Shown: piece after piece, positions 10,301-64,000 of the stretch
Numbering within the stretch: the first letter of the stretch is position 1
Layout: the number at the start of each line of letters is the position of its first letter
NCBI GenBank assembly: GCA_003024785.1
Contig: PUQB01000430.1
Span: 152,315 to 216,314 of the forward strand
From: Selaginella tamariscina
Lineage: Eukaryota; Streptophyta; Lycopodiopsida; Selaginellales; Selaginellaceae
Length of the DNA: 64,000 nucleotides
Reading direction: 5' to 3'
Notes under the pieces: model-generated
The model's database searches: none
The model's input: only the letters and a program-made list of their open reading frames with translations
What the model was told of the DNA's origin: nothing
Position numbers and translations under genes: made by a program

Positions 10301-10365
10301 TTGACATATTTACTAAGAACAAGGTTTTACAAATAGTACTCTTATATTAAAAAAGAGTTTGATTC

Positions 10366-12098: not shown

Positions 12099-12100
12099 AT

Positions 12101-24119: not shown

Positions 24120-24306
24120 TCCTCTAGGGTTTGGGGGATGGTCATTCTAGAGGGCTTAGGGTATTACTCTAAGCCTTCTTTTAACTAGGCATCTGAGTCA
24201 AACTCTTAGGGTCATCTTGGAAGACTTAGTGTTGCTCACATAGGGAATTAACGCCGGAAGGCCACTTGGCGGCTATGTGTTAGCCCTTTGGGTTAAAACT
24301 TTGACA

Positions 24307-41070: not shown

Positions 41071-42826
41071 TGTCAGAGTTTTAACCCAAAGGGCCAACAC
41101 GTGGCAACACGTGGCCGCCAGGTGGCCATTTGGCGTCATCACCCTGTGTGAGCAACGCTAAGTTTCCCAGAACAACCCCAACGACCCCTAGGGTTAGACT
41201 CTAATGCCCAAGTGGACAGGAGACTTAGGGTTTAGCCTAAGTCTCCCTAGAATGTCTGCCCCCAGAACCCTTGAGGGATAACCCTAGTTGACTTAGGGTT
41301 TAGCCTAAGTCTCCCTAGAGTGTCTACCCCCAAAACCCTTGAGGGATAACCCTAGTTGACTTAGGGTCTTGCCCTAGAAGACCTAGACAGGCTCATGCCC
41401 TAACCCCATCAAGGAGACGTGTGTTCCACACATACCCCTAGACAGAACTAAGGCATCATCACTTACCCCTTAAGGAATCACCCTCATCCTTTAGGGCGAC
41501 AAGGGGTACCCTGAACCACGACTAACCCTAAGGGTTTGAGTGGCCAAGTTATACCCTAGACCTAGGGCTAGTACTTAGTGAGGACACGAGTGTGCGCCCG
41601 TAGGCGGACACGAGTGTTCTGCTAAGCAAACTCCCTAAGGCTAGGTTTGGGATAACCCTAAGCACATGACCTTGCGAGTGCCTCACGAAAGGGCTTCTGC
41701 TAACAGCTTAGGTTGTTCAACCCTTGAATTCCAAGGAGAACACTCCCCTAGCCAAGTGTGCCAAAGCACACCTAGTTATGAGACCTAACCTCCCTTGAGC
41801 GGATGCCCAAGGCTTAGCACCCTAGTGCAAGCACAAGCATGTCTGTTTGCTAGAGTATCCAACCCCTTGGCGACAAGCCCATGACATAACCCCAAAGGGC
41901 GTGCCTCAGTGTACCATGTGACGTTTAGCCCAGTGTCACATCTCCATGTGACACTGCCTTCCGATGTGGGCTATCATGCCATAGCCCTTAGATTCAAGAG
42001 TTGCACCAAGTGCCACAAACGTGGCTCCTAAATGCCAACTCTAGAACCCCTCAATGAACCCTCAGGAACCAGGTAACGTGAACCTGTCAAACAAGATCCC
42101 ACGCCCACAGTTGGACAAGGACACGGATGTGCCTTGCTTGGCTGTGAGTGCTACACCTAGCTTGACGTGGAGGAGGAGGCTGGAGACAAGCCTCAACCTC
42201 TGCCTCTTGGAACGTGCATCCCGACAAGACCTCCCAGGCATGGATTCGCCAACGTTAAGGGTAAGCTACCCCGAAGGTGGGACGTACCCCTGGCATCTGG
42301 AAGTTAGGGCGGCACAACAGAGGGTTGTACCTTAACGACACAAGCTGAAGCTTGCACCGGCAGAAGAGCAACGAACTCATTCATGAACCCAGGAGCTCTC
42401 CTACGTATACTCTACCTTATTTATGTGACGGACCCCCCCCCCCTTTTTCCTATATGAGTAAGTGGGCTGGCACTGAATGCTAGCCCTTAGAGAAAATGAG
42501 TTGTCCAATCCTATCCTAAACCTAACCCAAGGGGGGGGGGTTTAGGCGTGGGTTAGGGCAACCCTAGGGGTGTCCTAACCCTATTTTGACAAGCTATACT
42601 TTGCAAAACCTAACCTGGACGTCAAAACGGGGGGTTTTCTAAATGGAAGTGCTAGCTTCGCTAGAGTTTCTTGCAAATACCTAACGACACCCGGCCGGAC
42701 CATCACTAGATACCCAAGTGCACTAGCGGGCCTGTTTCTTCTACATCTAGGGTTCGTCACATAATCCAGTAGGTAACAACAGTCAACGTCCAAAGTAAAA
42801 GAGGAGTCATAGTAAAAACTATGACA
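41071..42826 (-). repeat. LARD3 3' LTR (left)
   Basis: Read on the plus strand it starts TGTCAGAGTTTTAACCC and ends AACTATGACA. It holds a 68-bp tandem repeat at 41222-41357. It has very few substitutions compared with the right LTR; most differences are in the length of C or G runs, plus one deletion of about 14 bp. Confidence 0.88.
41222..41357. repeat. 68-bp tandem repeat inside the LARD3 LTR
   Basis: Two 68-bp units beginning GACTTAGGGTTTAGCC at 41222 and 41290. The same pair occurs in the right LTR (46713-46848), so the duplication existed before insertion. LARD1 and LARD2 LTRs lack it, which marks a subfamily. Confidence 0.85.
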
Positions 42827-45800
42827 CACTCCCCGCCTTTGAAAATGTCAACGTCCTCGTTGACGTCCAACTCCAAGACTAGATAATGTTAGAGAAAACT
42901 AACCAAAACTAACATATCACTCTATGCGGAGTCAGCCAAAAGTTCACATAATTTTATTACCCCCCTTGCATTACGCGAAACCAAGTACTTCAGAACCGTC
43001 GTTCACTGAGTCGTAAACCAGCTGCCGGAGGCACCACCTGCGACATGAAGTCACTTGGAGACCTTTTGCACGTCTGCAAAGTCTGTCACCCGACGCACAC
43101 AACACAATGGTTAATTTCTTTACTTAACTAGAATTTATATTGGAGGCCTCTAGTTAGTGTTGTTGCCGGCCCCTTGGTTAAAAGAAATAAAGACTTGCTT
43201 TATTCCTTAATATTAAACGCTGTTGACGACCTCTGTCGTCATACACAACAAGCACTTCTCAAATGCTTGACCAAACACCTTCGCATTTCTTTGATTTTCC
43301 AATGGTCCCACATGTTACGATATTATAGCTTACATCTCTGCATCCCTCGGTGTTTCTCATTACCCCTTTTCATAAGGGTCTGCTACTATACCTATCTCTC
43401 GTTAGTATATAGTTACGCCAGACTAAGTATGAGACTTTTATCGGAATCAAGCTCTTTTCCGATACAAGAGTACAATTCGTAAAACCCTGTTCTTTGTAAA
43501 CATGTCAATCTGGCCAGAGGCGATCACAGAGGCGCATGGCTGTACACATGTATACAACAAGGTCTTGCCAACCTACCAATGCCATCCACTTGGTGTGTTA
43601 TTAACATAAATTTATTCCCGATAGGAATCAAATTCAGTCAAATTTGCAACCAAGTGTGATAGCACTACCATTCATCTTTCACAATAACTTTGTACTCTTT
43701 CATAACACCGACCAGTTCAGGGACCAGATAAGCTAACATACCTTTCTTATAAACCAATGTGGAAACCAGGAAATTCAACCCATCTCTAATGCCTCAATAA
43801 CAATCTTTGTCTTAATTAGTACCCTCATTGTACTCATTCTCCAAAGAGCACAACATACTAGGTGCCATTCAATAATTCCTAACTCCTTATCGTACTAAGT
43901 TCAAAATACGGAATTTTAAAACTTAGTTTCACGATAAGAGTCTCCCTGAACTCGTAATACTGTACGCCTCCGTAACATTATATTTATTTCCAACTCTTAA
44001 ACTTATTTCGTAAATGTTTTCAACACTATACCGAAGTATAGCATTTCACTAATTGAAGCAACTAGTGTTTTTGATAAACATCTTTTAAAACTAATCCTTA
44101 TTCTATAAATAGTCACAATTTCGATATTGATACTCTCGAATGGATAATGATCGTTTTAACGTTCAAATCCTAAGCTTATCAACTAGTTGTTATACTAGTG
44201 GATATAAACTTACAATCATATCAATTTATCGAAATGCTACAACTACATTATAGATATGGTCTTAGTTTACATGAACCGAACTTCAATTTTGAGACGGAAA
44301 TATAATGTTACGACAGTATTTCGAGGAACTTTGTTCAGAGACTAAGAGGAATCATGAACTAGTGTCTGGTTCATCTAATTGATTTAGTAAGATATAAACC
44401 TCCACATAAATGTTATCATAACACTGAAGTGTTAGATCAACTTCATGTTTTAGTCATACCTTATATTCAATAGATCTCCCCAAACATGAATAAAATATCT
44501 AGTTCAGTACATTGAACTAAGATACATTATTCACTCTAGACACCTAGCAATCCAGAAAGTGTACATTGCCCCTCAAGCAATGTATTGAGAAATGTCTCAT
44601 TTCTCAACTAACTTGAAAACACGTTTCAAGTTATAACACTAAGGTAGTGCCTTACCAAAGTGTCAGACTCAAATCCACTTGAGTTTTATATTATATGATT
44701 ACGGCCACCTCATGTGATCATAACCAAGTTTGATATTGAGCGCTCCAAACTCAATATTAAAGAGATATATATACTTTGACAAGTCATTTATAACCAATCT
44801 TAAAAGATTGTCAAATACTTTCAAAGTTTAAGTAAATATCTCAACAATGAGGTGATAGGAAACCTCATATTTCGAACCGGATATTGGGACGAACCTTGAA
44901 CTACAATCATCAAGAAGGGACACCATCTTCTTGAGCTAATCCCGCTACACAATATCATACTTACAAGAATATTGAACCAACTCAAGGAACACCATCAAAC
45001 CTTGAGATAGAACAAAACTAACCCAAGGAATACAATCAAACCTTGAGTCAAGAATAGTTCTATTTTCAATATTCTGAAAGATTGAAGATACTACTTTATT
45101 TGTTCTTTAAGTGCCCACATTTGACCATGATGCAAAGTCAAGAAACCGTCTTTTGAATAATCGTATTCGACTCTAAAATGAAATTGATATTGAAAATCAA
45201 TATCAACTTTCAATTCTCATCGAACACCGACTCTATGAGGAGGTACATGCACTTAAACCTCCAATGGAAATTCGACTATTACTAGCTCATTGGTAATTCT
45301 CAACATAAGTTATCAAACTTAGCAAGTTTCCTTACTTAGCGATAAACAAAGTGAAGAATCCCAAATCATGCTCTTATTAACCAAGGAATCACCCTTGTTC
45401 AAGAGCTTATCCCACATTGCAAACAATGTTACAGATTTCAAGATTAAAGAGTTAACAATGAAAAATGCACAAGTGTGCGCCGAACGCCTTCACTATGCAA
45501 GTCCTTCATTACTCAGTAAACTGAAAATGTAAACGTATGTTTCCAACATTACTCTTTCTGATAGATCATGCCATCTATCCCAAAACTATATCGATAAGAA
45601 ACCGAAATCCTCAAGCTATTATCCGAAGTCTCTCTCATGATCCCATATGAGATAACTTCATAATCAAGTTAGTCGAGCTAGCTAACTTGAATACAGAGTG
45701 CGCACTTACAACTAACTAAGGTTTCAAGTTATACTTGTCAAATTAGGTGACTTGAACTTAGTAAACTATTCCACCTAATGTTACTTGCAGCTAGCATCAT

Positions 45801-46562
45801 CAAAATATTGCGAACATCAGACAATACTTTGACTACATTGGATCTTCAAACCCATTGCTTAACATATTTATCATATGTCAATATCCGACATTCCATTGTA
45901 TCATAAGTTCATCACCATAGTCTGCTTCTGGAGTTACACTCTGGAAAACGTGTACTATAATGAGAGCTTATTAACACTTCTATGTCAAAATGTAGTGTTC
46001 ATTCTTATGTTTCAATATGCCCCTTCTCCCGAAGTCAAAGATGCATTTCTGAACATAAGTCTTTCCCCGTTTGAACACTACAGTTGGATCCGATATTGAA
46101 TCTTGACATGAGCCAAGACTCAAAGGACACTATCTGTTTCCAAATCATGTGTTATCCCAAATTCAAACACCTTAAAAAAAAGAAAAATTTTCAATAATGG
46201 GTAAGCTTAGCATATCACATGATCCACTTCCAAGACTTAGTTTGTAAGCCAGAACAAACTAACACGCCACGTCTTGTGGAAACATATGGTAAAGTAACCT
46301 GGACAACCTTAAGGTAAAATAACCTGGCATACAACTTGGAAGCTGACTTCCAAGTGCTACCTTCTAAGTCCATAACCCACACCCACTTATGAAGTAGGTG
46401 TACTCTGAAGAGTTATAGATCTCAGGACCAACTCTCCACGCAGAATTCAGACATTAGCCGAAAGTGATAGAGTATTTCAAAAATTTAGAACTAACTAAAC
46501 CCTAAAATACACTACACTTTAGGTAGTCCTACTGACCGTAGAGAATAGGCTCCGATACCAAT

Positions 46563-48357
46563 TGTCAGAGTTTTAACCCAAAGGGCCAACACGTGGCAAC
46601 ACGTGGCGCCAGGTGGCCATTTGGCGTCATCACCCTGTGTGAGCAACGCTAAGTTTCCCAGAACAACCCCAACGACCCCTAGGGTTAGACTCTAATGCCC
46701 AAGTGGACAGGAGACTTAGGGTTTAGCCTAAGTCTCCCTAGAATGTCTGCCCCCAGAACCCTTGAGGGATAACCCTAGTTGACTTAGGGTTTAGCCTAAG
46801 TCTCCCTAGAGTGTCTACCCCCAAAACCCTTGAGGGATAACCCTAGTTGACTTAGGGTCTTGCCCTAGAAGACCTAGACAGGCTCATGCCCTAACCCCCA
46901 TCAAGGAGACGTGTGTTCCACACATACCCCTAGACAGAACTAAGGCATCATCACTTACCCCTTAAGGAATCACCCTCATCCGGGAGTACAACCCCTTTAG
47001 GGCGACAAGGGTACCCTGAACCACGACTAACCCCTAAGGGTTTGAGTGGCCAAGTTATACCCTAGACCTAGGGCTAGTACTTAGTGAGGACACGAGTGTG
47101 CGCCGTAGGCGGACACGAGTGTTCTGCTAAGCAAACTCCCTAAGGCTAGGTTTGGGATAACCCTAAGCACATGACCTTGCGAGTGCCTTACGAAAGGGCT
47201 TCTGCTAACAGCTTAGGTTGTTCAACCCTGATTCCAAGGAGAACACTCCCCTAGCCAAGTGTGCCAAAGCACACCTAGTTATGAGACCTAACCTCCCTTG
47301 AGCGGATGCCCAAGGCTTAGCACCCTAGTGCAAGCACAAGCATGTCTTTGCTAGTATCCAACCCCTTAGCGACAAGCCCATGACATAACCCCAAAGGGCG
47401 TGCCTCGGCGTTGTACCATGTGACGTTTAGCCCAGTGTCACATCCCATGTGACACTGCCTTCCGATGTGGGCTATCATGCCATAGCCCTTAGATTCAAGA
47501 GTTGCACCAAGTACCACAAACGTGGTTCCTAAATGCCAACTCTAGAACCCCTCAATGAACCCTCAGGAACCAGGTAACGTGAACCTGTCAAACAAGATCC
47601 CACCCACAGTTGGACAAGGACACGATGTGCCTTGCTTGGCGTGAGTGCTACACCTAGCTTGACGTGGAGGAGGAGGCTGGAGACAAGCCTCAACCTCTGC
47701 CTCTTGGAACGTGCATCCCGACAAGACCTCCCAGGCATGGATTCGCCAACGTTAAGGGTAAGCTACCCCGAAGGTGGGACGTACCCCTGGCATCTGGAAG
47801 TTAGGGCGGCACAACAGAGGGTTGTACCTTAACGACACAAGCTGAAGCTTGCACCGGCAGAAGAGCAACGAACTCATTCATGAACCCAGGAGCTCTCCTA
47901 CGTATACTCTACCTTATTTATGTGACGGACCCCCCCCCCCTGTTTTCCTATATGAGTAAGTGGGCTGGCACTGAAATGCTAGCCCTTAGAGAAAATGAGT
48001 TGTCCAATCCTAATCCTAAACCTAACCCCTAGGGGGGGGGTTTAGGACGTGGGGTTAGGGCAACCCTAGGGTTAGGTCAACCCTAGGGGTGTCCCTAACC
48101 CTTATTTTGACAAGCTATACTTTGCGAAAACCCCTAACCTGGAACGTCAAAACGGGGGAGAGTTTTCTAAATGGAAGTGCTAGCTTCGCCTAGAGTTTCT
48201 TGCAAATACCTAACGACACCCGGCCGGACCATCACTAGATACCCAAGTGCACTATGCGGGCCTGTTTCTTCTACATCTAGGGTTCGTCACATAATCCAGT
48301 AGGTAACAACAGTCTACGTCCAAAGTAAAAGAGGAGTCATAGTAAAAAACTATGACA
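46563..48357 (-). repeat. LARD3 5' LTR (right)
   Basis: Same ends as the left LTR, 1795 bp. The adjacent primer-binding site to its left sets the minus orientation. Confidence 0.88.
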
Positions 48358-48780: not shown

Positions 48781-49559
48781 AACTAAATAACTTCTGGAAT
48801 ATTCTTTCTAAGGCACACAACATCACACAGCAATCCAAGGCATGGCAACAACAATCCAAGGCACAACAAGCATGGCATCCTTCTTCAAGATAGTGGTAAT
48901 TTTGTATATATTAATCATGTACATTTGCATATATGTATGAGAATACTTATAACACCACACACACACATATATATTTATATAAAATTTAAATGCACGTTGT
49001 AACTAAAGTGGGCATGATACGTGAAAATGGGAATATAAAATAAATTACTAATTAATACTTAAGTTTTAATTATTAATTAATCATTTAATTAATATTGTAA
49101 TTAAGCCTAAATATTATTAATTAATTAATTAATCCTTCAATAACCTTACTTAGTAAGGAATATCCTAAAATATCTTAGAATATTCATATTATTCTAAAAA
49201 TAGTTACAATAATGAAGAAATACTATCAAACATAATTTACAAATGAAATCATTTTCTTATCAACATGTTAATTTTTTTATAAATACTTTCTTTCTATCAT
49301 ACAAAGAAATCTTTCATTTTGTCTAAATCATCACTCTCCGGATTAATCAAATCATTTTGGTCAATATTCTTGATGTTGTTGCACCACTTAACACTCTCAC
49401 GAATGCAATTGGGAGTTGCCATCCTGTTAATACATAAGATGTGATAAGAGAAGGTCTGCATAAAGGCTCATCTAAAAAACTGACGTTCCTTAAGAATAAT
49501 ATTATAAAGCGCCCGGTTGCTATCCTTCATTTTATAAAATTCAATATCACGAGAAAGAA
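48781..49559. other. AT-rich spacer, no gene
   Basis: Contains ATTAATTAATTAATTAAT-like simple sequence near 49105-49135 and TA-rich runs. Nothing coding is supported. Confidence 0.6.
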
Positions 49560-50538
49560 AGCTTCAGGAAATGTATGATACGGTGGATACTGCTCACAAA
49601 AATTTTCGAGATTCTTCTTCTGAGGCACGTATCCAAGTAGTTCACTAGCTCATCCATGATATCGATATCAGAATATGGATCGAAAGTGATTGGATGAATA
49701 CAAGCAATGTTTTTGGTTGAGCATAGCCTTCTGAGGAGAGTCGTCTACTACTAAATATTGTGCATTTCTTCGTTATCCTTAAGCGATTGATCTCCCCATG
49801 AGTCCCAATTATTCTTTCATTCTTGAAGAAGTATGGCTTGCTTTCCTTTCCTATATTGTGAAATTCGAGAGGTTTATAACACATTCGCTGGTCAAAAATC
49901 CAATCTTTACGAATCACCTCTTCTGCAACACTACAATGTTTCTTAAGTAAAACTCAACAGCGGTGTTAAGTTATGAATCTGCATGCATGACCAAATCCCC
50001 ACAAGCGCACCCATCTCCTTAAGCTTTTGAAAGAGACGATCCAACCCTGGACGAAAAATAATATATATCGAAATTTACCATGACAAGGAATGAAATCTCC
50101 TTGTTTGATTTCTGTTTTTCTATCCTCGGGCCTTTGTCGATGAAGCAGAACACCATTGACATCCAACAACACAATATGGCCATGAGTAACGTGAGATAGC
50201 GTTGCCTCTTGAATACTTTGCAAATCACTTGTTTGCTCCCTTTCACATTTATCCGTTGCCACTATTTCGTTGCCTATCCCTTCATCATTTAATTGTACAT
50301 CTCCTTACAAGATTCAGATATTGCATGCGCTGAAGAAATTGATTCGGAACTGAAGCCAATAAAAATGATGATGCAAAACTGAAGTGGCCCCCATGGTAAC
50401 GATGTTTTGAGCTGCATTATTATCCATTTCCTGCATGAACTCTGTCATTCTGACATGTGGCACAAGAAATTGTCGCCAAACCCTCTCTTACCTCATGGCA
50501 ATGCTGAAAATCCATGTTCTCAATTATTTCATTACATC
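49560..50538 (-). CDS. FCP1/NLI-interacting-factor-like phosphatase
   Basis: HAD-superfamily FCP1-type domain, known from phosphatases acting on the RNA polymerase II tail. In order: an N-terminal stretch (ENMDFQHCHEVREGLATISC), motif I HIVLLDVNGVLLHR (near 50140-50180), RPGLDRLFQKLKEMGALVGI (near 49990-50053), DWIFDQRMC with SKPYFFK (near 49825-49905), and DDSPQKAMLN (near 49715-49745). A tail like LENFCEQYPPYH follows (near 49570). In motif I the second acidic residue of DxDx is Asn (DVNGV), as in some plant FCP1-like proteins, so catalysis may be altered. An acceptor TTTTGCAG near 50538 suggests an upstream exon. Three or more frame shifts occur in 0.9 kb, which means a pseudogene or assembly indels. 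It lies just downstream of the ParB-like gene in the same direction. Confidence 0.7.
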
Positions 50539-50718: not shown

Positions 50719-53700
50719 TCAATTCATTATCAATTCTTCTTCGCTATTACCTTCTGAATGAGGCGAAGAAGGTCTAAGCCGCTTGTGAGATGGTTCAAGA
50801 TCTTCTGCATCTTTCTATTGATGTTTCCATGGGTCCTGGAGTGTGCGAATGTTCTGTACTCCTCGAGATAACTTCCGGTCTAATATCTGATTGATGTTCG
50901 TTCTCAGACTCCGAGATTGAACCAGATTCACCTTCAGAGCTATCGCACTTATCTGGAGGGAACTTTCTCAAATACGCCTTTATGGAATCGTGGGGTACTC
51001 AGTTGAGACCCAATCTATCCACTTGTTCAGGTCCTCAACCATGGTCTTATCCTTCTCAACGGCAAACACACATGTATGCCGAAGGTAACACTCCTTCAAG
51101 ACGGACCCCCTAGTGCAGTAGTCAAAAACCCACGCATCACTGTGAGACCCTGATCAAGTTGACGATGCTCCGTGCCGCTTGACTTGTAATGTTTGGATAA
51201 CGTACATTGCGAATACGTCACTCATACCTATTGGTGTATCGGATGGAGGTTCAGGGCGTTGGAGTGCAAACAGATGCCTGGCCAGTCATTTGGAGCTTGA
51301 ATTGTTTGGCGCATTCCTAACAACCAAGTGAACAACGGTATCAATGCACTTGGGATTAGCATCGTTATAAAAATCCTGTCCAACGATGTCTATTCTTCTT
51401 GGCGAAGGCGAAGGCAAAAGTATCGTGACATGAGCAAGAATCAAGAATAAATACCTGAAAAAGTAGGTATCAGTGAAGAGCGCAAGCATGAATTCAATAA
51501 TAAATACTTTATGTATATGCTTGCACGGCTAAGTTTCTCACCAGATCCTCTAGTGCCCTATCTGTCGAAAGATTTTTTTGACACCCGCCGATCCATCACG
51601 AACAATTGAAACGGTTTTCCTACAAGCAGTGATGTTACCCCATAAGACTCCGAATCTAACAACAAACATCTGTAGGGCTTGTCGTGATTCGTAGCATCCT
51701 CCTTTATAAGGTTCAATTCGGTTCTCCGCTGCTGAAGGACTGCCATAAGAGAAGGCGTCATCCCAATGTTTCTCCTTTTTGGCGTTGGCGTGCAATAGAT
51801 TCTTGCCCAGATCTTCCGATTGGTTCACCCATTCGACAAGCAATATCATCGTTCGTCACATGCAAATATTTGCTAACCTCTTCATATGTTGAAGTCGGGT
51901 CCAACCCAGTTTGTGGCAGTGTATTCCCAACCACTCCTTGAAATGCCTGACCGTCTTCAACTCCATTGCCTTGAGATGAAAAGGAGAGGTTGGGCTGCTG
52001 TTATTGATTTGTAGTTTGCCATCGATCACCAAATCAGCCAAGACTTCCATCTCCTCCATCGTTGTTCCATTTAAAGGCTTCAACCATGTGAGCTTGAAAT
52101 CGTTGTCTACATCCTTTGTAGATTGAACAGACTTAGCCTTCGGCGTCTTACTGGGTTTCTTTGCAGACTTTTCTGAGGGCTCCCCTTCACTTGTCTGCTT
52201 CTTCTTCAGTGTTCCTTTTGAAAAGGATTCCATAATCCCCAACCATTTGGCAAAGATCCTATCTTCGGGGCAAGAAATCAACATCATCAGAAATGATGTT
52301 TCCTTCCCGCCCACCTGGGCAAAATCAACTGCTGCAATTTCTTCAACTCTCTGAGGAAAAAGACAGATTAATATACCGGCGAGATAAATCCCGCCCAAAC
52401 AATTTGCTTACCCGGTATTCCGCAGATTGTGTATTCCCTGCGGTAGCTCTTTGTGGTCGCTGAAGAGATTCCCACACGGCTCGCGTGTGTTTAAACTTCT
52501 CCCATATTTTGCTGTTGTAGTGGTTGGTGTCGGCAGCGTCCCATTCCGCCGATAACTTATGGTACTGCTCGATTGTGAGATTCGGCTTAGCTAAAAACGC
52601 CGATCTTTTTGTCAGCTTCTCACGGGTATGCTCGGAAAGTTTTGTTGCCATCGTTCCTTTGTTGTGTTCTTCGAGAAGTCGTTGGGCTGCCGTTATTGTG
52701 TGCTGGCCACTAATGATGTAGTACTTGATAGATCTTTTATTCTCCGTCTGAATCTTCATGAGTTGTTCTGGTGTTGTGATCCAGACTTTGTCAGCACCCT
52801 TCCTTCTTTCATAGTATGGACACAAAACAGCATTATGTGGAACGGTATAAGAATTGTCGTCCTTCATCTTCTCCATGAGCTCAGCTACACGTTCCTGGTT
52901 GAGTGGCCTGTAATTGAAGTTTGGGTTGACGCTGCAATATTTAACCCTACAAGGATAAATCTTATCATCCAACATCATTTCCTTGTGACTTATTGCAGCA
53001 TGAGATGCCACAGGTGCAGCTGACAAAACGATTGATGATTTTCTTTTGCGATCCGAATCAACATGTGTGATCCCCGACTGCAGCTGTTCTAGTGTTCTCG
53101 GCACACTGCTCCAGCTCCCGAAGCTTCCTAAGCAAATTGAACGTGATCTGTAGAGAACCTGAGACCGAGCCACCTTCTCAATCTCCCTTATGATGTCGCT
53201 GTGTTCTTCTTCAATGTCAAGAGGGAAGATTGCTCCACTTGCTGATTTTCTGTATTGTGAAACAATATCTCCTGACAATACACCTACTCGATGAGTCTGA
53301 AGATCTTCGAAGTAGACATCCAGATGGATCCCCTCCATAGATGGGCTTTCGTTGAGTTGAAGAAGAACTCCAAGGTCAACATCATTAGTGAACACGTGAA
53401 CGTCATTATCCACAAGTCGACAAAACCACCCGAGATTAATGTTGTAACTGACGACCTCTGGATCCGAGAACGTGACATTGGATGGAACAAGGCATATCTG
53501 TCGAGCATCGTCCAATCTGGGTTCGCAGCCTGCTTTCGGGTGCTTGACTAGCGAATCAACTTTCCATTGTTTTGCTTGTCCATGAGATGTGACAGAGGTT
53601 AATTTGACAGCAGCCATGGTTGCTCCAATGCGCTTCCCATTTATCTTAAAATATGGCCAAGTTGATTCCAGAATCCCCCTGCCCATCTCTTCTCCTGCTC

Positions 53701-53851
53701 TTACTTTAATGTCACCTCAATTCCACATCTGAATACAAAAATGATTAGTTCAAGTATCCGAGTATAACAGATTTTATTTTAATTCTTACCCAGAATTTGA
53801 CGACGACTCCATACTAATGACTCGATCTCCTTGTTTGATCAAATCGTCCTT
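50719..53851 (-). CDS. ParB-like domain plus methyltransferase-like protein, multi-exon
   Basis: Exons on the minus strand: 53790-53851, 52412-53728 and one from 52350. The introns 53729-53789 and 52351-52411 are 61 bp each with GT-AG ends. From the ATG at 53686, residues 1-250 are unrecognised. Residues 255-345 look like a ParB/sulfiredoxin-fold domain (RPLNQERVAELMEKMK, then YYIISGQHTITAAQRL with SGQHT at 326-330). A helical part follows, then a lysine-rich linker (SEKSAKKPSKTPKAKSV) and a C-terminal part with DAWVFDYCTRGSVLKE and CVFAVEKDKT (51030-51140). That resembles the SAM-binding motif of permuted DNA amino-methyltransferases. The end carries HKRLRPSSP, NLS-like, with a stop at 50719-50721. 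ParB plus DNA methylase is known in bacteria and phages; in a plant-like genome it is unexpected. The 3' half is interrupted in frame, so function is uncertain. Confidence 0.6.
52378..52395. repeat. Palindrome variant inside the ParB-gene intron
   Basis: GGCGAGATAAATCCCGCC, the same variant that occurs in the upstream array near 55411. It sits in the 61-bp intron 52351-52411. Confidence 0.8.
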
Positions 53852-53956
53852 CTGCAAAATAATACACTATAAATATAAATTATATAAAAACGCACACACA
53901 CTTGTATAAACCCGAATATACAAAAATAATACACAGAGAGAAGTAGACGTAATTAA

Positions 53957-54039
53957 CTGTCCGAAGCTCACATTTGTGTTAGTGCAAAAGAAAGATAACA
54001 TTTCGTTTTAGAACCACCACAAATGTGAGCTCTGGACAG
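53957..54039. repeat. Hairpin-forming inverted repeat
   Basis: Arms CTGTCCGAAGCTCACATTTG (53957-53978) and its near reverse complement (54018-54039) pair over 20 of 22 bases around a 39-nt loop. It lies just upstream of the first recognised ParB-gene exon, probably in its first intron. The size would also suit a small-RNA precursor, but nothing proves transcription. Confidence 0.65.
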
Positions 54040-54151
54040 TTTTACATAGATTCCTAGCTTTTACTCGAAATAATATGAAAGATGATAAAAGTAAATAAAA
54101 TGAGATATGCAACTTATATATACTAATACACATATATATTCACATGGAAGG

Positions 54152-55702
54152 TGCGGCGGGATTAATCTCGCCACCCCTTCAATGCCTCCTGAAAGAGTGG
54201 GCGGGATTAATCTCGCCACCTTTCTGGAGGCCTTGAACGGGAGTGCGGAATTAATCTTGCCACCCTTCTCGGTCTCAGAGAGAACTGGGCAGGATTTATT
54301 TCTCACACCCCTTCAGTGACTCCAGAAAGGAGGCGGGATTAATCTCGCCCACCATGTAAGGGATGGTTAAATGAATCTCGCCACCCTTCCCAGTCCCCTC
54401 CATTGGTATGTTGTAAACCTTCTACGTCTTAGACAGAAACGTTTGGGATTGGTCCAACTCACCAATGGAGGAAAAAGGGAAGGGTGGCGAGATTCATTTC
54501 TCCAACAGGCATTGAAGACTCGGCGGGATTAATCCCGCCGCCCAGGGCCTTCACTCGATCCCTATGCGGCGGGATTAATCCCGCCGGACGCCAATTCCCT
54601 GCGCGGAATCGGGCGGGATTAATCCGCCGCCTAGGCACTTCAGGCAGGCCAATGGCGGCGGGATAATCCCGCCCGATTTCGCACAGGGCATTGGCGTTCG
54701 GCGGGATTAATCCCGCCTCCCAGGCCCTTCACTCGGGCCTTAGTCGGCGGGATTAATCCCGCCGAACGCCAATGCCCTGTGCGAAATCTTGCGGGATTAA
54801 TCCCGCCGCCTAGGCCCTTCAGGCAGGCCAATGGCGGCGGGATAAATCCCGCCCGATTCCGCGCAGGGCATGCGTACGCGGCGGGATTAATCCCGCCCAC
54901 CATGTAAGGGATGGTGAAATTAATCCCACCACCCTTCTCGGTTCCCTCCATTGGTATTTTGTAAACCTTCTCCGTCTCAGACAGAGTTAGTCGGGATTGA
55001 TTCAACATACCAATGGGGAATGAAGGTTCGGAGATTAATCTCGCCACCGGGTAATGAAGGTTCGGAGGCTAATCCCGCCGCCCTCTCGTAAATCATGCGC
55101 TCACACATATATATTGGCTGCGGCATTTTTGAACAGGGATGGGTGGGGGCGGGATTAATCCCGCCGCCCAGGGAATTCACGCAGGACATGAACGGCGGGA
55201 TTAATCCCGCCGCCCTCCGCGAAGGGCATGAGCGTGGGGCCGGATAAATCCCGCCGTTCATGTCCTGCGTGAATTCCCTGGGCGGCGGGATTAATCCCGC
55301 CGCTCTACGACAAACCGAAGAGCGGCGGGATTAATCCTGCCGCCCATTCCCTGTAAATGCCCTGCGCGGAATCCGGCGGGATTAATCCCGCCCATTAGAA
55401 CCTTCACACAGGCCATTGCCGGCGAGATAAATCCCGCCGCATTCCGCGCAGGGCATGGATGAGCGGCGGGATTAATCCCGCCGCCGAGGCCCCTCACGCA
55501 GGCTATGGGCGGCGGGATTAATCCCGCCGCTCTTCGGTTTGTCGTAGAGCGGCGGGATTAATCCCGCCGCCCATAGCCTGCGTGAAGGGCCTCGGCGGCG
55601 GGATTAATCCCGCCGCTCACCCATGCCTGAAGGGCCTCGGCGGCGGGATTAATCCCGCCGCCATGGCCCCAACTATATAGCGGCGGGATTAATCCCGCCG
55701 CT
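54152..55702. repeat. Palindrome array 1 (about 30 copies of an 18-bp palindrome)
   Basis: About 32 copies, exact or near-exact, of GGCGGGATTAATCCCGCC, a perfect 18-bp palindrome, spaced mostly 40-60 bp apart. Copies are more degenerate near the ParB gene (54152-54500) and mostly perfect in 54520-55702. The spacers are also repeated and inverted (for example TTCACGCAGGACATGAACGG at 55176 and its reverse complement at 55254). Words such as GCGCAGGGCAT recur. It lies 5' of the ParB-like gene on the minus strand. Open frames here are a by-product of the 18-bp repeat. Confidence 0.92.
55461..55618. repeat. 72-bp inverted repeat built of palindromes
   Basis: Arms 55461-55532 and 55547-55618 are reverse complements with one mismatch, around a 14-nt loop. 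Each arm holds two 18-bp palindromes, so small hairpins are nested within a large cruciform-forming structure. Confidence 0.85.
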
Positions 55703-55711
55703 CGAGGGGCT

Positions 55712-56394
55712 TAGCGAGATAAAAACACACACATATATATGTGTGTGTGTATATATATGTATGTATGTATGTATGTAGGAGTGTACGTGTGTGTGCAAGA
55801 GATAGATAAATAAATAAACTTATACAGTACTGGTACACCTAATATATGTGTGTACATAGGTATATATATGTGTGTATATGTATATCGTGTGTATGCGTGT
55901 GAGCGAAACAAATAAAATCATACAGATAAACAAACACACACACACACATATATATATACACAGGAGTGTGCGTGTGTGTGCAAAAGATAAAACTAATAAA
56001 TAAATAAAATTATACAGATAAACACACACATATATATGTGTGTATATAGATATATAATCTATAGAGAAAGAGAGAGAGTCTGTGAATATATAAGCATATA
56101 TATAAACTAGTGTTGTATGTATGTATATATGTATATAGGTATATATATATGTGTATATGTATATTGTGTGTATGCGTGTGTGAGCGAAACAAATAAAATC
56201 ATACAGATAAACAAACACACACCACACACATATACATACACAGGAGTGTGCGTGTGTGTGCGAGAGATAAAACTAATAAATAAATAAAATTATACAGATA
56301 AAACACACATATATATATGTGTGTATATTATATATATATGAATATATAGCATATATATAAACTAGTGTTGTATACTATTTGTTAATATGCATTG

Positions 56395-56469
<75 letters not shown>

Positions 56470-56531
56470 GCAGTGCGCGTGTGTGTGGGAGAGATAGATC
56501 AATAAAAAAAAATTTACAGATACTGGTACAC

Positions 56532-56609
<78 letters not shown>

Positions 56610-56860
56610 GCAAGATCAATAAAAAAAATTTACAGATACTGGTACACATAATATATGTATGTATATATGTATATAGGTATATATATATATGTGTATATGT
56701 ATATCGTGTGTATGCGTGTGTGAGCGAAACAAATAAATCATACAGACACATATACATACACAGGAGTGTGCGTGTGTGTGCGAGAGATAAAACTAAGAAA
56801 AAAATTATACGCACACTCCTATACATATATACATACACACACACACACACACAGATCTCA
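55712..56860. repeat. TG/TA microsatellite block with repeated units
   Basis: Long CA/TG and TA runs (pure AT then GT runs at about 56399-56466 and 56538-56606). Larger words recur three times each, such as GCGTGTGAGCGAAACAAATA (near 55895, 56175 and 56715) and CAGGAGTGTGCGTGTGTGTG (near 55961, 56241 and 56761). This suggests duplication of units of roughly 280-540 bp. Confidence 0.88.
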
Positions 56861-56865
56861 CCTGT

Positions 56866-56910
56866 GTGCACAGCCGCCGCCGCCGATTTCACAGCCGCCG
56901 CCTCTTGAAA
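56866..56910 (-). other. Possible non-coding first exon of the ParB-like gene
   Basis: A short GC-rich island (GCCGCCGCCGCC) in AT-rich sequence. On the minus strand it ends CACACAG followed by GTGAGATCTG, a good splice donor. If joined to the acceptor at 53852 it would place palindrome array 1 in the first intron. This is speculative. Confidence 0.25.
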
Positions 56911-57228
56911 CCCTAAGAATATACCTAAACCCTAAAGGAATTAAATATATATATCAACCCTAATAGAATATTCCTTCTGAGAATATACTTAAACCCTAAA
57001 AAGAATAAAATATAGATTCGCCCTAAACGAATATTCTTTCATTATATTATTAGCGCGTGCGTGTGTGTGGGTGTATCACATACACCTCAAAAATATAAAT
57101 CATGCAGGGATTTAACATGTGTGTGTCCATGAGAGTGTTAAAGTTTCATGTGTACACATTGCATATATTAATACACATAATATATACATACACACGTGTA
57201 TACACACAGACATACACACATATTACAT

Positions 57229-57256
57229 GGGTTTAGGGTTTAGGGTTTAGGGTTTT
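57229..57256 (+). repeat. Interstitial telomere-like repeat 1
   Basis: GGGTTTAGGGTTTAGGG and one further unit, about four copies of the plant telomere unit TTTAGGG. Confidence 0.88.
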
Positions 57257-57257
57257 G

Positions 57258-57600
57258 GATTTAGGATGGATCATGCATGGTGTGTATGTATGAGAGAAGA
57301 GAGAGTGTTGAAAAATTATTTTTGTACACATTGCATATATTAGTACACATATATACTTACACATATTATACACAGATATACATACATAGTATATGAGAGA
57401 AGAGAGACAGTACATATTAATATGGATCATGCATGGTGTGTATTATACACACAGACATACATACATATTAGTACATAATATTAGAGAGACCGAGTACATA
57501 TTATAGATCATGCATGGTGTGTATGTTTGAGAGAAGAGAGACAGTACATATTAACATGGATCATGCATGGTGTGTATGTATGAGAGAAGACAGAAAGTAC
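57258..57600 (+). repeat. Imperfect repeats with GGATCATGCATGGTGTGTAT
   Basis: The word recurs near 57266, 57423, 57506 and 57558, each with AGAGAAGAGAGACAGTACAT-like neighbours. Non-coding. Confidence 0.75.
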
Positions 57601-57696
57601 ACATATATACATACAGAGTACACATATATACATGCACACGTGTATACACACAGACATACATACATATTACATGAGTAAATTCATTGTGTTACATAT

Positions 57697-57725
57697 TAGG
57701 GTTTAGGGTTTAGGGTTTAGGGTTT
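57697..57725 (+). repeat. Interstitial telomere-like repeat 2
   Basis: About four TTTAGGG units, same orientation as the first block 0.47 kb upstream. Confidence 0.88.
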
Positions 57726-57978
57726 GCTCCCAACAAGCTTAATATAAATATTACACATGTAAATTCAATGTGTTACATATACACAGATTGAGTACATATA
57801 TCATACATGCGTTGAACATGATGTTTTCAATAAAGAAGCAACATATTTCTTCAGTTTGGTTTAGGGTTGTGCATGTGTGTGCATATGTGTTTTTGTAAGT
57901 TCTTGTAATGCGTGTGTAAATTTATGATTGTGTTTATATATGTGTGCAAAACAAACATCGAATAATTAAGAAAATAAA

Positions 57979-58405
57979 ATTAATAAACACACTAGGAACA
58001 TATTTTAAATTATACATAATAATATATGATTTTATCTAATATATAGCCATATATAGTTTTAATAATATATATTAATTTAATATTGATAAAAAGGTTTAAC
58101 ATTGAAATATTCTTGAAATAATAAGAAATTAATTGAGAAAATCCCATTAATATATACAAATGTAAATTAAGTACTCAAATAATTAACTAAATTAATTATC
58201 ATAATCATGTTTAATATTGGAATATTCTTGGAATAATAAGAAAATAATAAAGAATATCCCATTAATATAAAGAAGATTAATTACTCAAGTAATTAAGGAA
58301 ATGATATTAATATATATATTATTAAAACTATATATGACTATATATTAGATAAAATGATGTATTATTATGTATAATTTAAAATATGTTCATAGTGTGTATT
58401 AATTT
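57979..58405. repeat. Long AT-rich inverted repeat with local direct repeats
   Basis: Arms about 57979-58078 and 58304-58405 are reverse complements over roughly 95 bases (TTTTAAATTATACATAATAA against TTATTATGTATAATTTAAAA). Between and after them, GAATATTCTTGAAATAATAA-like units repeat (near 58110, 58220, 58432 and 58556). It resembles a fold-back or MITE-like element. Confidence 0.7.
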
Positions 58406-59125
58406 AATATTGATAATAAGGTTTAACACATGAATATTCTTGAAATAATAACAAATTAATTGAGAAAATCCCATTAATATATACAAATGTAGAATAATTA
58501 CTGCAATAATTAAGAACAAGACTAATTTAATTATGATAATCAGGTTTAATATTAGAATATTCTTCAAATATTAATAAAATATTAAAGAATATCCCATTGA
58601 TACTAGGAAATGAAAACTAAATACTCGAGTAATTAAGAAAATAATAATAATAAACAGACTATGAATATATTTTAAATGATACATAATAATATATCAATTT
58701 ATTTATTGTATAAGTATATATTTATATATATATATATAATATAAATATACTTGAATACTAAGAATGTAGAATATAGTCTAAAATTTCGTAATATTAAACA
58801 GCTTGAATCACTTGAATAACATTAAATGCAATTTTAAAATACTCATTGGAACTGGAGAGTATATATGTCAGAGTGTCGGATATTTGTGTCAACTCATCTT
58901 AAATTTTATTTTCTGTTCTTTTTAAAAAATTTGAATTTCTGACATATGTATTGTCGGTCTGACATATAAATTTGAAAATGCATTTAATTTCCCACTCAAA
59001 TTCAGATCTGGTTCTTTCTCCGGCAAGGGTTTCTTCATTTCTGTATTTTTCACTCTTTAGATCTTCTTTTTTCTTCATAGTGATCATCTCAGGAGCGAGA
59101 TTAAATTGGGTGCTATTCTTTATAG

Positions 59126-59156
59126 GAAAGCACGGCGCCTTCAGTGCTGTTTACAA
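59126..59156 (+). other. Possible non-coding first exon of the DUF7869-like gene
   Basis: TTTACAA followed by GTAAGTATTA is a strong donor at 59157, and an acceptor TTATTTATGTGCAG ends at 60388, six bases before the ATG at 60395. If used, the intron of about 1.2 kb would contain all of palindrome array 2. The exon's start is not defined. A reading GKHGAFSAVYK across the donor recalls a kinase loop but is too short to trust. Confidence 0.35.
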
Positions 59157-59324
59157 GTAAGTATTATAAACAAATTTAAAAATACTTATTAAGATTCACT
59201 CTCTTACATTCTCTCTTAAAATTACAATTTAGGGGTTTAGAAATGCATTAGGATTATAATATATTCCGTTAGGGATTTATCACGTTTAAATATCCTTTTA
59301 ACTTAATATTCTAGGTTAACCGGG

Positions 59325-60241
59325 GCGGCGGGATTAATCCGGCCATTTCTTTTTCGCCTCTTTGAAGAAGTGGCGGGATTAATCCCGCCACCATCTCCCG
59401 GGCAATGCTTCTCCGCCACTGAAAAAGAGTGGCGGGATTAATCCCGTCGATAACCTTCTCAACTGATGAAGAGTTACCAGAATTTATTAGAAAGAGTTGT
59501 CGGCGGGATTAATCCCGCCAACCATTTTAGGAGGCAGGGAAGGGGTGGCGGGATTAATCTCGCCACCACTTCACTGTTTTAAAGATTTGGGGACAGGATT
59601 TATCCCGAGATCTCTTTGAAATCATAGTTTTGGAGAGAGTTATGTGCGGATTTAATCCCGCCACCCATTCCCCGTCGTAAGAATTGTGGGCGGGATTAAT
59701 CCCGCCTTGGACTCCCTCCGACAAGGAAGAGCCGGCGGGATTAATCCCGCCGCCTCTTCCTCCGACGAGGAAGGGAGTCCGGCGGGATTAATCCCGCCGA
59801 CTCTCTCCGGCGAGGATGAGTCGGCGGGATTAATCCCGCCGGACTCCCTTCCTCGTCGGAGAGAGTCGGCGGGATTAATCCCGCCGGACTCCCCCCGAGG
59901 AGGAAGAGGCGGCGGGATTAATCCCGCCGGCTCTTCCTTGTCGGAGGGAGTCCAAGGCGGGATTAATCCCGCCGACTCTCTCCGAAGGGGTTGAGTCGGC
60001 GGCGGGATTAATCCCGCCGGACTCCCTTCCTCGTCGGAGAGAGTCGGCGGGATTAATCCCGCCGGACTCCCCCCGAGGAGGAAGAGGCGGCGGGATTAAT
60101 CCCGCCGGCTCTTCCTTGTCGGAGGGAGTCCAAGGCGGGATTAATCCCGCCGACTCTCTCCGAAGGGGTTGAGTCGGCGGCGGGATTAATCCCGCCGACC
60201 GTTCCTCGTCGGAGGGATTCGTGGCGGGATTAATCCCGCCC
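59325..60241. repeat. Palindrome array 2 (about 20 copies)
   Basis: About 20 copies of GGCGGGATTAATCCCGCC or close variants, spaced about 45 bp in the right half. As in array 1, the copies farther from the gene (59325-59660) are more degenerate or widely spaced. Spacers with GACTCTCTCCG/CGGAGAGAGTC words occur in both directions. The array sits immediately 5' of the coding region starting at 60395. Confidence 0.92.
59841..60196. repeat. Exact 178-bp tandem duplication inside array 2
   Basis: 59841-60018 and 60019-60196 are identical as read, each beginning GGACTCCCTTCCTCGTCGGA and holding four palindromes. Perfect identity points to a recent duplication. Confidence 0.85.
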
Positions 60242-60394
60242 ATCAGTTGTATTAATCAAACATGAGATATTATCTCTAAACATAATTATGTATTATTGCA
60301 TATGCATATTATTAAGTAACCGTAATTCAGATTTCTTAAAAATATTGCATAAACAGATATCATAAATAATACAATTATTTATGTGCAGGACAAT

Positions 60395-63300
60395 ATGTTT
60401 AATACTGGAGATAAAGTATGTCTTCTTCGGAACAACGAGATAGTTGGCACTGGAACTGTGGAAGTTCGAGATAATAATGCATCATGTCACAATATTTCCC
60501 AAGGATCTTGTGTGTACGTATGGGTGAACACCATTTTCAAGCATGTTGAGGTTCTGGGAATGGAATTTGAGGAGGGTTCTCCTGTATTGTGGAATTTGGA
60601 TGAAGTCAAGGCTGACACAAAATATGCAGAGTCACAAACAAATAGTAGCACGAGTTTACCAGATGATGGCTTGCCTGCTGTGATGGATGAGGTGATTCTC
60701 TTTCTTCGTGAGATTGAAGTCGGAAGAGGCATCATCACAGCTATAAATCCAATGGAAGCAGTGTCAGAAGAGAAACTAGGGTCCGACTTCGTGGGTGTAG
60801 TTGTGACAGAGGTTTCACCTAATGGCACATTGTATCCTGGATCCCTCGTGAGGTGGCGAACATCTGAATTAAGACGGCAAGATGGTTCAACATATTCTGG
60901 GTTGGATTTCAATAATAACAACCCGGAAGAACAACTCATATTTGAAGAGGTTCCTTGCATTGGTCCTATTGTAAGAAAAAGGCGATTCATGGGTTGTAGA
61001 TCTTCCCCTGCAAGTTTCAGCAAGAGGGTAAAGATGGATCCTACATCTTCCGAAAGTGTTACGAGCATTTCCACGATTGACTGTTGCAAGAAGAAGTGTT
61101 GTCAGATGGCAGACCGGAATGAAATTACCCAATGTAGACATGTCTTTCGTATGCTCACCCAAAAGCAAAGGCATGAGTTTGTATATGCTGCACTAACTGG
61201 GTGTATTGATGGAATGGCCTCGGACACAGGTTATCAGAGTACATCCATGGTATTTAATAAGGTGGCCATCTGCTTCAAAGCTTGGTACAGTATATACGGG
61301 ATCCCAAAGACCACGTTCTACCGTCGGAGGGATGAGTGGCTAGATGGAGCGCGAACCTCAGTTCATGGGAACACTGCTTGGTCAAAACCCGCTCTCACAT
61401 CATGGCAGCCATAGAGATACTCAAGGCTTTTGTGGAAGCAAATGCAGACAGGATGCCTCACAAATGCCGAACCACAAATGCAGGGGTCAGGGAAAATCTC
61501 AAGGTTTTACCTTCAATCTACACTCAATTGAAACTGTGTGAACATGTGAACAAGTGCCTCAGTTTGATGGGGCTCCAAGCAATCTGCACTGGTACCTTCA
61601 ACAACATATGGAATACTCATTTTAAGGATGTGGAGATTGCAAAACACTCTAGCTTTTCTAAGTGTGACACTTGTACATCATTGAAGGCTGCAGAGGCTTG
61701 TGCAAAAACCTTGGTGGAGATCACTACCATTCAAAGGAAGATGGAGGCCCACATGATTGCACAACAAACTTGTCGGTCTCAGTACTATGCACACCGCATG
61801 CTTTCTGTGTCACGCCCATCAGAGTATCTGTGCTTGATCCATGACAAGATGGATCATTCAAAGACCAGCATTCCAAAGCTCTTTGCAACACCAAAGTGCC
61901 TTGGAAATGTCATGAAACTTCCGATTTCTTTAACAGGTGTGCTAACACATGGACACGGTTGTGAGTCATATGGACACTTTTCACTTCCACATTGGTCTAG
62001 CGACTCCAATTTCACTATTGGGTCGTTAGCCATGTGTTTCAGAAACCTTGAAGCCCACTCACAGACAAATCCTATCAGTGATCTCAAAGTGAAGAAACAA
62101 CACCTTCAACCTTTACATAATGCTCTCATGAACACGTCTGCACTTGAGGCTACTTGGGAATATGAGAGGCATTGTCAGCAACCTGCACAAAAAACAGATG
62201 GCCCTGTTGAGAGTTCAGGTTCAGTGGAGGGATCTAGCTCAAATAGTGTACATGTGTCCTCAACATCAAATAAGCTTCCTCGTCATTTGCTTTTACAGAT
62301 GGATAATTGTGCAGGCGAGAACAAAAATAGGTAAATCATTTTACTTAAGGGTTTCTCAAGCTCATACTTACTTTTATTTTCTAGATATGTGCTAGCATAC
62401 TTGTCAATGCTTGTTGCCAAAGGTGTGTTTGAAACAATCACGCTCAGTTTCCTTATGGTTGGTCACACTCATGAAGATATTGATGCGTTCTTCAGCAAGG
62501 TCTCCAACTCTACAAAAAGGACAAGTGCACTTACCTTACCGCATATGATGAATCTTTTTGAAAATTGCATCTCCAAAAAAAGTTGTGCTTTGCTTGTGAC
62601 TGAGGTGCCAGACTTCAAAAAATTTCTCAAGGAGTATATAAAAGAAGGGAGTGATTCTTTAGTTGGTCACCTTGTGCCGCTACAATTCTTTTTCTCCATA
62701 CGAGATGGTATACCTATTATGCAGTACAAGTTACGGCCATCAGAGCAGGAGTGGTTACCGAAAGAGGGCTTAATGCTCTTCAAAAGTGGAGAGGATGGAA
62801 AGCCACTTCTCCCAGAAGGACAACCAGACCCTATTCCATTGAGTGCCCAGCTCAAGGAACAAGAGGTTATTATTGATGGCATCAAAAAATATGTGGCATG
62901 GGTTCAAAAATCGATGCCAAAGAATTCTGATAAGGCAACTGGTTACTCAGAACTATATAAGCATGTGGTCAACTATTGGGAGACTGTTGTTCGAGAGTTG
63001 GAAGGGCCTACTGTCACAAGTACAGAATTGCAACACCCTTTCTGGCCTAAAACAAGGTGGCGAGAGGAGATTGAAATGACATCACTGAGCACAGACGACA
63101 TAGAAGCCAGTAGTGATGTGGAAGTGCAAACCCCACACTTTGTTGGACAAAGGAACCAAAAACCTAAAGCATACTTTGATTGCTGCAAGGATCTTCAAAA
63201 ACTAATGATGGTTCTCATTACTCCAGATGCGTCATATAATCAGCCTATTTGGATGGGTCAAATTATCGACACACCTGAAGTAATCACAAAAAATAGTATT

Positions 63301-63513
63301 GTTAAGGTTGCATGGTTCAAACCACAAAAAAGGCGACACGAGAAGGAGAGCGAAAGATATAATGGATGCCTAGAGAAAACATGGTCTCCCAATCAAAAAG
63401 ACCCAGCATGTTTTATAAATGTTAAATCCATTCGATATGGGTGGATGTCAAGAAGCGTTGATAAAGTCACGATTAACAAAACTGCAAGGGAATGTATGTT
63501 TTCTGAAGCTTAA
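60395..63513 (+). CDS. DUF7869-like gene with DDE/RNase H-like motifs
   Basis: Starts at the ATG 60395 just after a probable acceptor at 60388. Two related N-terminal modules: EIVGTGTVEVRDN (near 60440) and REIEVGRGIITAINPM (near 60708). A helical region and a cysteine part SKCDTCTSL follow (near 61660). Then come three acidic motifs: LIHDKMDHSKTSIPKLF (61833), LLLQMDNCAGENKN (62287-62330) and VGHTHEDIDAFF (62458). This spacing of D, D and E/D is as expected for an RNase H-fold transposase/integrase core, and the last two motifs are typical of DUF7869-type proteins. A 54-bp intron (62331-62384) splits the N-R-Y codons cleanly. The C-terminus has a beta-rich part (WMGQIIDTP, VKVAWFKPQ) and a stop at 63511. 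One apparent frame shift lies near 61400. A decayed duplicate of the last exon is at 29965-31083. Confidence 0.75.
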
Positions 63514-64000
63514 AGCAATTACAAAATTATAAAATATCATATATTTAATATTCATAATTATTATAAACTCTTTAATAATAGTACCAAATTGTATACTTAA
63601 CTATATAAATTTAAAAAATGATATGGAAGATTGACTATATTATTATAGGATTTTATATATATATTATTACTACTACAAATTTTTAATTAATAATGTTATA
63701 TTTAAATATTAATATTTTAATAACAACATCAATATTTATATAATGTACCTCTTATGCTCTTCCTTAATTGTTATATTAGGCAATATATTATATAATTTAA
63801 TACATTCTACTTTTATAATGTTATTAATGAATGCTATAATTTATTAAAGGGTAGAATACAAAATAGAATATTCTAAAGAATATTCTCTTTTCAAACATAT
63901 ATTCTAAAGAATATTCCTTTAATATTAGAAAATGCTAATTAAATAGCTAAAATTGCTAATTATTAGGAAATGGGACTATAGCCATGCCCATTTTAGTTAC
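63514..64000. other. AT-rich 3' flank
   Basis: No gene. It shares sequence with the flank after the decayed copy (31084 onward), including AAGCAATTACAAAATTATAA and TCTAAAGAATATTC words, so the duplication covered the gene end plus several hundred bases. Confidence 0.65.

Follow-up and report, generated by a model that had tools for sequence, protein, structure and literature searches.

The DNA analysed here, a stretch of 64,000 nucleotides from Selaginella tamariscina (hereafter the window), is the final 64 kb of the 216,314-bp contig PUQB01000430.1 in a genome assembly of 300.7 Mb and 1,391 contigs. Its right-hand part carries a minus-strand gene set and a plus-strand DUF7869 gene, which point away from each other, each having a dense array of one 18-bp palindrome on its 5' side. 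This block is a single copy of a large, highly abundant DNA transposon of ~14.8 kb with terminal inverted repeats (TIRs) and 4-bp target duplications, and the role of its palindrome arrays is the subject of this study.

Alignment to other copies places the element between position 48990 and ~64009, its final 9 bp lying past the end of the window and of the contig. Copies on three further contigs (C1, C2 and C3) can be aligned with the window, and the alignments break off at identical points; the right end at C3:113614 corresponds to window 64009 and is common, within 1-2 bp, to the copies L010, L012, L013, L014 and L016 (copies fetched from the genome are labelled L009-L020, L028, L051, L052, etc.), while the alignment of L018 ends before the right end and continues into other sequence. 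The 27-bp inverted ends read ATGCA(C/A)GTTGTAACTAAA(G/A)TGGGCATG, and this pattern, at two mismatches or fewer, has 2,081 + 1,983 = 4,064 matches genome-wide (control, 0), enough ends for about 2,000 copies. At 14.8 kb per copy the family would occupy near 30 Mb, or ~1/10 of the genome, which is an upper estimate because many copies are partial. Among the first 100 TIR matches listed there are 28 inward-facing neighbour pairs, 13 of them spanning 13.8-15.4 kb, and a TIR is located 0.5-2.5 kb downstream of 22 of the 35 DUF7869 matches on the contigs of the listed TIRs. An exact 4-bp target duplication was identified in seven of the 12 copies with both flanks read (TAGA, CGTT, CTAT, ATAA, TGGT, AAGA and ATGT). 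These ends, duplications and copy numbers bear out the suggestion of an earlier sequence-only reading that the locus harbors a large mobile element; the block delimited there (50719-63513) is a real unit but was drawn too small, as the element reaches further on both sides and includes an additional NIF-phosphatase-like exon.

Membership in the CACTA (En/Spm) superfamily, with its hallmarks of CACTA ends, a 3-bp target duplication and a Transposase_21 domain, was rejected, as the ends begin with ATGCA, the duplication is 4 bp, and Transposase_21 gave no match, with Transposase_23 at E 0.069, below cut-off. The 4-bp duplication agrees with the Sola superfamily, for which it is not diagnostic alone. 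As far as the consulted portion of PMC3627910 describes them, Sola2 elements likewise combine short TIRs (12-21 bp), 4-bp duplications and long elements with extra genes; however, their duplications are AT-rich (AWWT etc.) and those found here are mixed, and the likeness concerns the ends, the duplication and the extra genes.

The palindrome, GGCGGGATTAATCCCGCC, occurs at 44 sites in the window at three mismatches or fewer, versus 0.01 expected by chance, and these sites form two arrays (24 + 19) and one lone site that recurs in six fetched copies (L009, L011, L015, L017, L019 and L020). Genome-wide, 59,903 places were identified at two mismatches or fewer, and none with the reversed pattern as a control. 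Placement was judged on the first 100 of these places listed, all exact and situated on C1-C3, and all 100 lie in arrays within stretches alignable to the element; one palindrome-bearing copy, at C1:130 kb, has no TIR among those listed. Outside this genome, the exact 18-mer was found in 49 stretches of a prokaryote genome collection and in one viral contig stretch, listed with one site each except for one stretch with two, and the palindrome thus does not form a widespread array there. There are 13 cases in which the two genes have listed copies no more than 25 kb apart, of which 11 are divergent and two are not; ten of the divergent pairs are spaced 8.5-10.0 kb and one 18.4 kb. The outward-pointing genes with palindromes on their 5' sides and the microsatellite and telomere-like repeats between them, first noticed in the sequence-only reading, are confirmed in the window, and the genome-wide placement of the palindrome, proposed there as a check, favors that reading for the places listed. 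At L016:3922-4720 a TIR starts ~70 bp past another palindrome array, apparently a case of one copy inserted beside or into the array of another.

Table 1. Features of the transposon in the window (positions count from the first letter of the 64,000-nucleotide stretch; a dot marks features without strand)
Feature	Position	Strand	Details
Left terminal inverted repeat ATGCACGTTGTAACTAAAGTGGGCATG	48990..49016	+	Homology of the C3 and C1 copies (C1:792k) begins here
NIF-like phosphatase exon (approximate)	49757..50489	-	Alignment to L020:1537-2268
3' exon, earlier labelled methyltransferase-like (approximate)	50719..51535	-	273-amino-acid open frame in L019
Main exon, earlier labelled ParB-like	52343..53716	-	457-amino-acid open frame here, 478 amino acids in L019
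Lone palindrome, 2 mismatches	52378..52395	.	Inside predicted intron 52351-52411 of the minus-strand gene
Palindrome array 1, 24 sites (<=3 mismatches)	54155..55699	.	5' side of the minus-strand gene
Central non-coding core	55700..59326	.	TA/TG microsatellites, two TTTAGGG tracts, AT-rich tandem repeats
Predicted 5'-untranslated-region intron of the DUF7869 gene	59157..60388	+	Donor ACAA/GTAAGTA, acceptor TGCAG/GACAATATG (slash, splice site)
Palindrome array 2, 19 sites, median spacing 45 bp	59327..60240	.	5' side of the DUF7869 gene
DUF7869 transposase-like gene	60395..63513	+	PF25273 E 3.2e-13 and 1e-26 on its two exons
Right terminal inverted repeat, 18/27 bp present, cut by the contig end	63983..64000	-	Alignment to copies

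With respect to the genes, array 2 lies wholly within the predicted intron of the 5' untranslated region of the DUF7869 gene, whose donor is kept in 7/7 copies having the exact acceptor, at a predicted intron length of 735-1,237 bp. A predicted splice acceptor of the minus-strand gene follows closely downstream of array 1, at 53852, and is present in seven copies; no donor matching it was located, and array 1 is predicted to lie in an intron or the promoter of this gene. It is improbable that the transposase uses the arrays to recognise the ends, from which they are 5.2 kb (left) and 3.8 kb (right) away and to which they bear no likeness; they are more probably cis-regulatory. A related possibility is that they serve transposition in cis, as internal transposase-binding or synapsis sites comparable to enlarged Spm/CACTA subterminal repeats. 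Spm does carry arrays of a short motif bound by an element protein, and none of the 28 inward-facing TIR pairs spans less than 6.7 kb, so that short derivatives without an interior seem rare. However, besides their distance from the TIRs and their dissimilarity to them, the arrays lie 5' of genes, and an 11.9-kb copy (C1:312117-323972) bears the target duplication ATGT with only array 2 seen, its first 2.9 kb falling outside the examined part; a role in transposition is accordingly rated as improbable.

The internal structure of the arrays separates the motif from its surroundings. Spacers of array 1 and array 2 match each other with a mean best score of 14.9, versus 13.0 for shuffled and 34.9 and 40.4 for within-array comparisons, and yet the two arrays have an identical 18-mer and a 44-46-bp pitch. 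Of 19 arrays, 18 have a median spacing of 44-46 bp and the remaining one is truncated at the end of its locus; the number of sites differs among copies. In array 1, the palindromes of the window differ from those of L019 at 1/432 positions and the spacers at 25/1226, and from those of L015 at 2/430 and 32/1195, respectively. Pooled, these two full-length comparisons give 3/862 for palindromes versus 57/2,421 for spacers (Fisher p 4e-5), a sevenfold lower rate of change in the palindromes. All 16 locus comparisons point in the same direction, with 45/2056 versus 311/5756 for array 1 (seven loci) and 99/2455 versus 731/4673 for array 2 (nine loci), although these totals include units possibly out of register. 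Constraint is also uneven along the motif: among 94 distinct palindrome words, changes are most frequent at CpG and outermost positions and rarest at A7, T8, A11 and T12, which together show nine changes, compared with 14 for T9 and A10 together and 8-25 for each single G/C position.

These patterns bear on one explanation of the arrays, a functionless satellite-like tandem repeat that expanded within the element and hitch-hikes with it. Tandem arrays expand easily and site number does vary among copies, but such a repeat would hardly account for an 18-mer and pitch common to two arrays with nearly unrelated spacers, for palindromes that change less than spacers or for uneven constraint along the motif, and this explanation appears very unlikely. 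Observed/expected CpG reaches 1.04 and 1.13 in the arrays and 0.90 and 0.94 in their spacers alone, versus 0.77 in the minus-strand gene, 0.66 in the core, 0.41 in the DUF7869 gene and 0.48 in window positions 1-48989; CpG retention in the arrays would fit low methylation, but also motif selection or youth. The idea that the spacers act as hairpin arms was rejected as a general property, as adjacent spacers pair above the 99th percentile of shuffled arms (taken from array 1 only) at just 10 of the 43 sites tested, nine of the ten in array 2. Neighbouring spacers at 59734-60151 in array 2 are often mutual reverse complements, forming extended inverted repeats round some palindromes.

The reading that we favor, with a probability of roughly 0.6, is that the arrays are binding-site platforms for a dimeric, sequence-specific protein that controls both gene sets. 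A shared dimeric binder is suggested because nearly unrelated spacers carry the same motif and pitch 5' of both gene sets; the lower rate of change in the palindromes, the uneven change along the motif, the position of all 100 listed places inside the element, the retained splice sites of the length-variable array-2 intron, CpG retention in the arrays and the analogy with the VANC-target arrays of Arabidopsis VANDAL elements point in the same direction. Each array would act as a multivalent platform, one subunit of a symmetric dimer occupying each 9-bp half-site GGCGGGATT, and the bound protein may keep the divergent control region at the centre of the element accessible, driving or de-silencing both gene sets so that they stay expressed.

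The protein that would occupy these platforms could come from the host. The half-site contains GGCGGGA, which we take to be the core of plant E2F sites, and each palindrome could then represent two inverted E2F half-sites, with the element riding the S-phase programme and soaking up E2F with ~60,000 sites. Eight E2F_TDP matches in this genome and the TTTAGGG tracts of the core, which presumably resemble the telo-boxes of cycling-cell promoters in plants, are in keeping with such a scenario, as is the precedent of transposon-amplified E2F sites in Brassicaceae, as presented in part of a review (PMC12595863). However, the half-site runs on as GGCGGGAT and not GGCGGGAA, and the greater variation of the CpG of the core and the outermost bases than of the central AT is the reverse of the expected contacts, which is a mild objection and one possibly confounded by CpG decay. 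Binding by E2F is therefore considered unlikely, albeit less so than a role in transposition, and an element-encoded binder, with the minus-strand protein as first and the transposase as second candidate, is somewhat favored over a host factor.

For the minus-strand gene set, the labels given in the sequence-only reading, both drawn from motifs, did not survive. Identity as an N4/N6 DNA methyltransferase was rejected for want of any profile (Pfam, NCBIfam, PHROGs) or PDB match, and none of DPPY, SPPY, NPPY and TPPY occurs in the open frames of 100 amino acids or more that were examined on the minus strand of four copies. Tblastn against phages gave no homology match for the ParB- or methyltransferase-like sequences, nor did a protein search of viral contigs match the methyltransferase-like exon. 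A ISGQHTITAAQRL stretch in the minus-strand protein resembles ParB box II by eye only, and a single-sequence AlphaFold model of the 478-amino-acid exon was discarded at a mean predicted local distance difference test score of 33. This exon has 6,710 first-look candidates in the genome, and 80 of the 89 best-scored ones lack a stop, a share biased to intact copies as only these best 89 were scored. The NIF-like exon matches PF03031 in the C3 copy L020 (E 3.8e-8, 33.6 bits, cut-off 21.8) and is not open throughout in the window copy. Its catalytic-loop motif is DVNGV, with Asn where, we presume, the second catalytic Asp of NIF-like phosphatases belongs, and the transposon-borne protein is possibly an inactive or plant-type captured haloacid dehalogenase (HAD) protein.

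A more specific and more tentative version of the platform reading is that the minus-strand protein, which belongs to no known family, coats the two arrays as dimers at the 45-bp pitch and protects both gene sets from DNA methylation by the host, as a self-contained anti-silencing system that would be independent of VANC and would use another protein and a symmetric motif. We regard this as possible but doubtful.

Several observations weigh against the platform reading as a whole. Profile searches confirmed no DNA-binding domain in any element protein: ParB identity was rejected for lack of any Pfam, NCBIfam, PHROGs or PDB match to the 478-amino-acid exon or its 125-amino-acid core, and a helix-turn-helix in the transposase is indicated by no more than an HTH_psq match below threshold (E 0.23). 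The 478-amino-acid exon shows no constraint between the window and L019, with a ratio of nonsynonymous to synonymous differences per site (pN/pS) of 0.94 over 13 differences. L012 and L017 showed no exact match to the acceptor of the array-2 intron, and five of the 12 copies with both flanks read, including that on C3, are without a target duplication. Diverged arrays align poorly, and out-of-register units inflate the spacer change; the two safest comparison pairs both concern array 1, and that with L015 contains indels. Concerted evolution could also hold the repeats alike, although it should homogenise the spacers too.

For the plus-strand gene, profile matches on both exons uphold the earlier DUF7869-like label. 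The two exons are separated by a 54-bp intron (62331-62384, read in L051), and the frame is broken near 61336-61414 in the window copy and open in L051. The genome holds at least 300 DUF7869 matches, obtained from the 150 scored of 4,249 first-look candidates. The second exon is full length (374-375 codons) in 13 fetched copies with six distinct sequences, the shorter reads of L028 and L052 having been excluded; the distinct sequences differ at nine codons, five synonymously and four nonsynonymously (pN/pS 0.21), changes that are too few to prove constraint. The window copy and five others share one sequence across this exon, and the family is therefore young. A DDE/D transposase with an RNase-H fold is no more than putative here: the DUF7869 profile is matched, candidate acidic residues were picked by eye only, and the part of the protein encoded by the first exon has no relative in the PDB. 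A protein search of viral contigs matched the DUF7869 exon in one stretch, and no paper on DUF7869 was found in open-licence PMC. A second DUF7869 3' fragment lies in the window at 29966-31383; it is 88% identical to 62389-63579, ends in a diverged right terminal repeat (31357-31383, three mismatches) and appears to have been left behind by an older relative of the element.

Other systems, too, have short-motif arrays to which a protein of the carrier itself binds. The Spm/En (CACTA) subterminal repeats with TNPA sites and the family of repeats of Epstein-Barr virus (EBV), bound by EBNA1, are short or 18-bp palindromic arrays of this kind; the Spm sites are subterminal and the EBV array serves the episome, whereas the arrays described here are internal and 5' of genes. 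VANDAL elements of Arabidopsis are Mutator-like (MULE-type) transposons. According to the parts of the two VANC studies used here, the VANC element protein binds its own motif and methylation is lost (PMC5735166, PMC10398659), and the motifs accumulate in tandem repeats that change fast, located within introns in VANC21 and VANB21 and 5' of the gene in VANA21 (PMC5735166). The Selaginella element resembles this system, as described in those parts, in a family-own motif placed in tandem repeats of introns and upstream regions that vary fast between copies (PMC5735166, PMC10398659); its arrays lie outside the coding sequence, in predicted introns or upstream regions of its genes. It differs from the motif given there, the 9-base YAGTATTAY, in its perfect 18-bp palindrome and 45-bp pitch, and further in its DUF7869 gene and 4-bp duplications; the proteins of the element and VANC were compared only through Pfam, NCBIfam and PHROGs scans. 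In Brassicaceae, the consulted part of a review reports that transposons amplified E2F sites, with ~85% of the motifs in transposable elements and possible dilution of E2F (PMC12595863). The Selaginella family is similar in carrying E2F-type sites in large numbers; the Brassicaceae motifs, as described there, are 10 bp long and mainly in miniature inverted-repeat transposable elements (MITEs) and Helitrons, in contrast to the closely packed palindromic arrays of this large coding element. Motif arrays as such are already known from DNA transposons, but no DUF7869 element bearing palindromic arrays in its two 5' regions emerged from the open-licence PMC search; the papers listed there on E2F/MITE, ParB/moss, ParB/streptophyte, Sola, Sola/moss, VANC and palindrome arrays likewise included none naming this element.

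In the core, the TTTAGGG tracts, which are of plant type, are located at 57229-57265 and 57696-57725, and the AT-rich tandem repeats have units of 115-123 bp. Compared with L009, L012, L013 and L017, the core shows ~13-17% divergence and the spacers of array 2 18-21%, and the genes only ~4-9%, suggestive of subfamilies with fast-changing control regions. No RNA family in the window reached its gathering score. A separate repeat occurs at 5419-17149, 24117-26550 and 41070-48357 in several direct and inverted occurrences, mostly 78-96% identical, and contains 68-bp tandem repeats with TTAGGGTTTAG; a 72-75% relative lies ~150 bp past the element end in L015.

In this genome, one 18-bp palindrome is present ~60,000 times, confined to this family among the places sampled, and is preserved while its surroundings drift. 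Should its binder be a cell-cycle factor of the host, the family would be an extreme case of a parasite flooding a genome with the sites of a host regulator; if an element protein binds it, the family would represent an independent self-targeting transposon regulatory system and a natural multivalent DNA platform. Few transposon systems have had a sequence-specific escape from silencing worked out, and anti-silencing by the minus-strand protein, if true, would explain how the family came to hold what may be up to 1/10 of the Selaginella genome.

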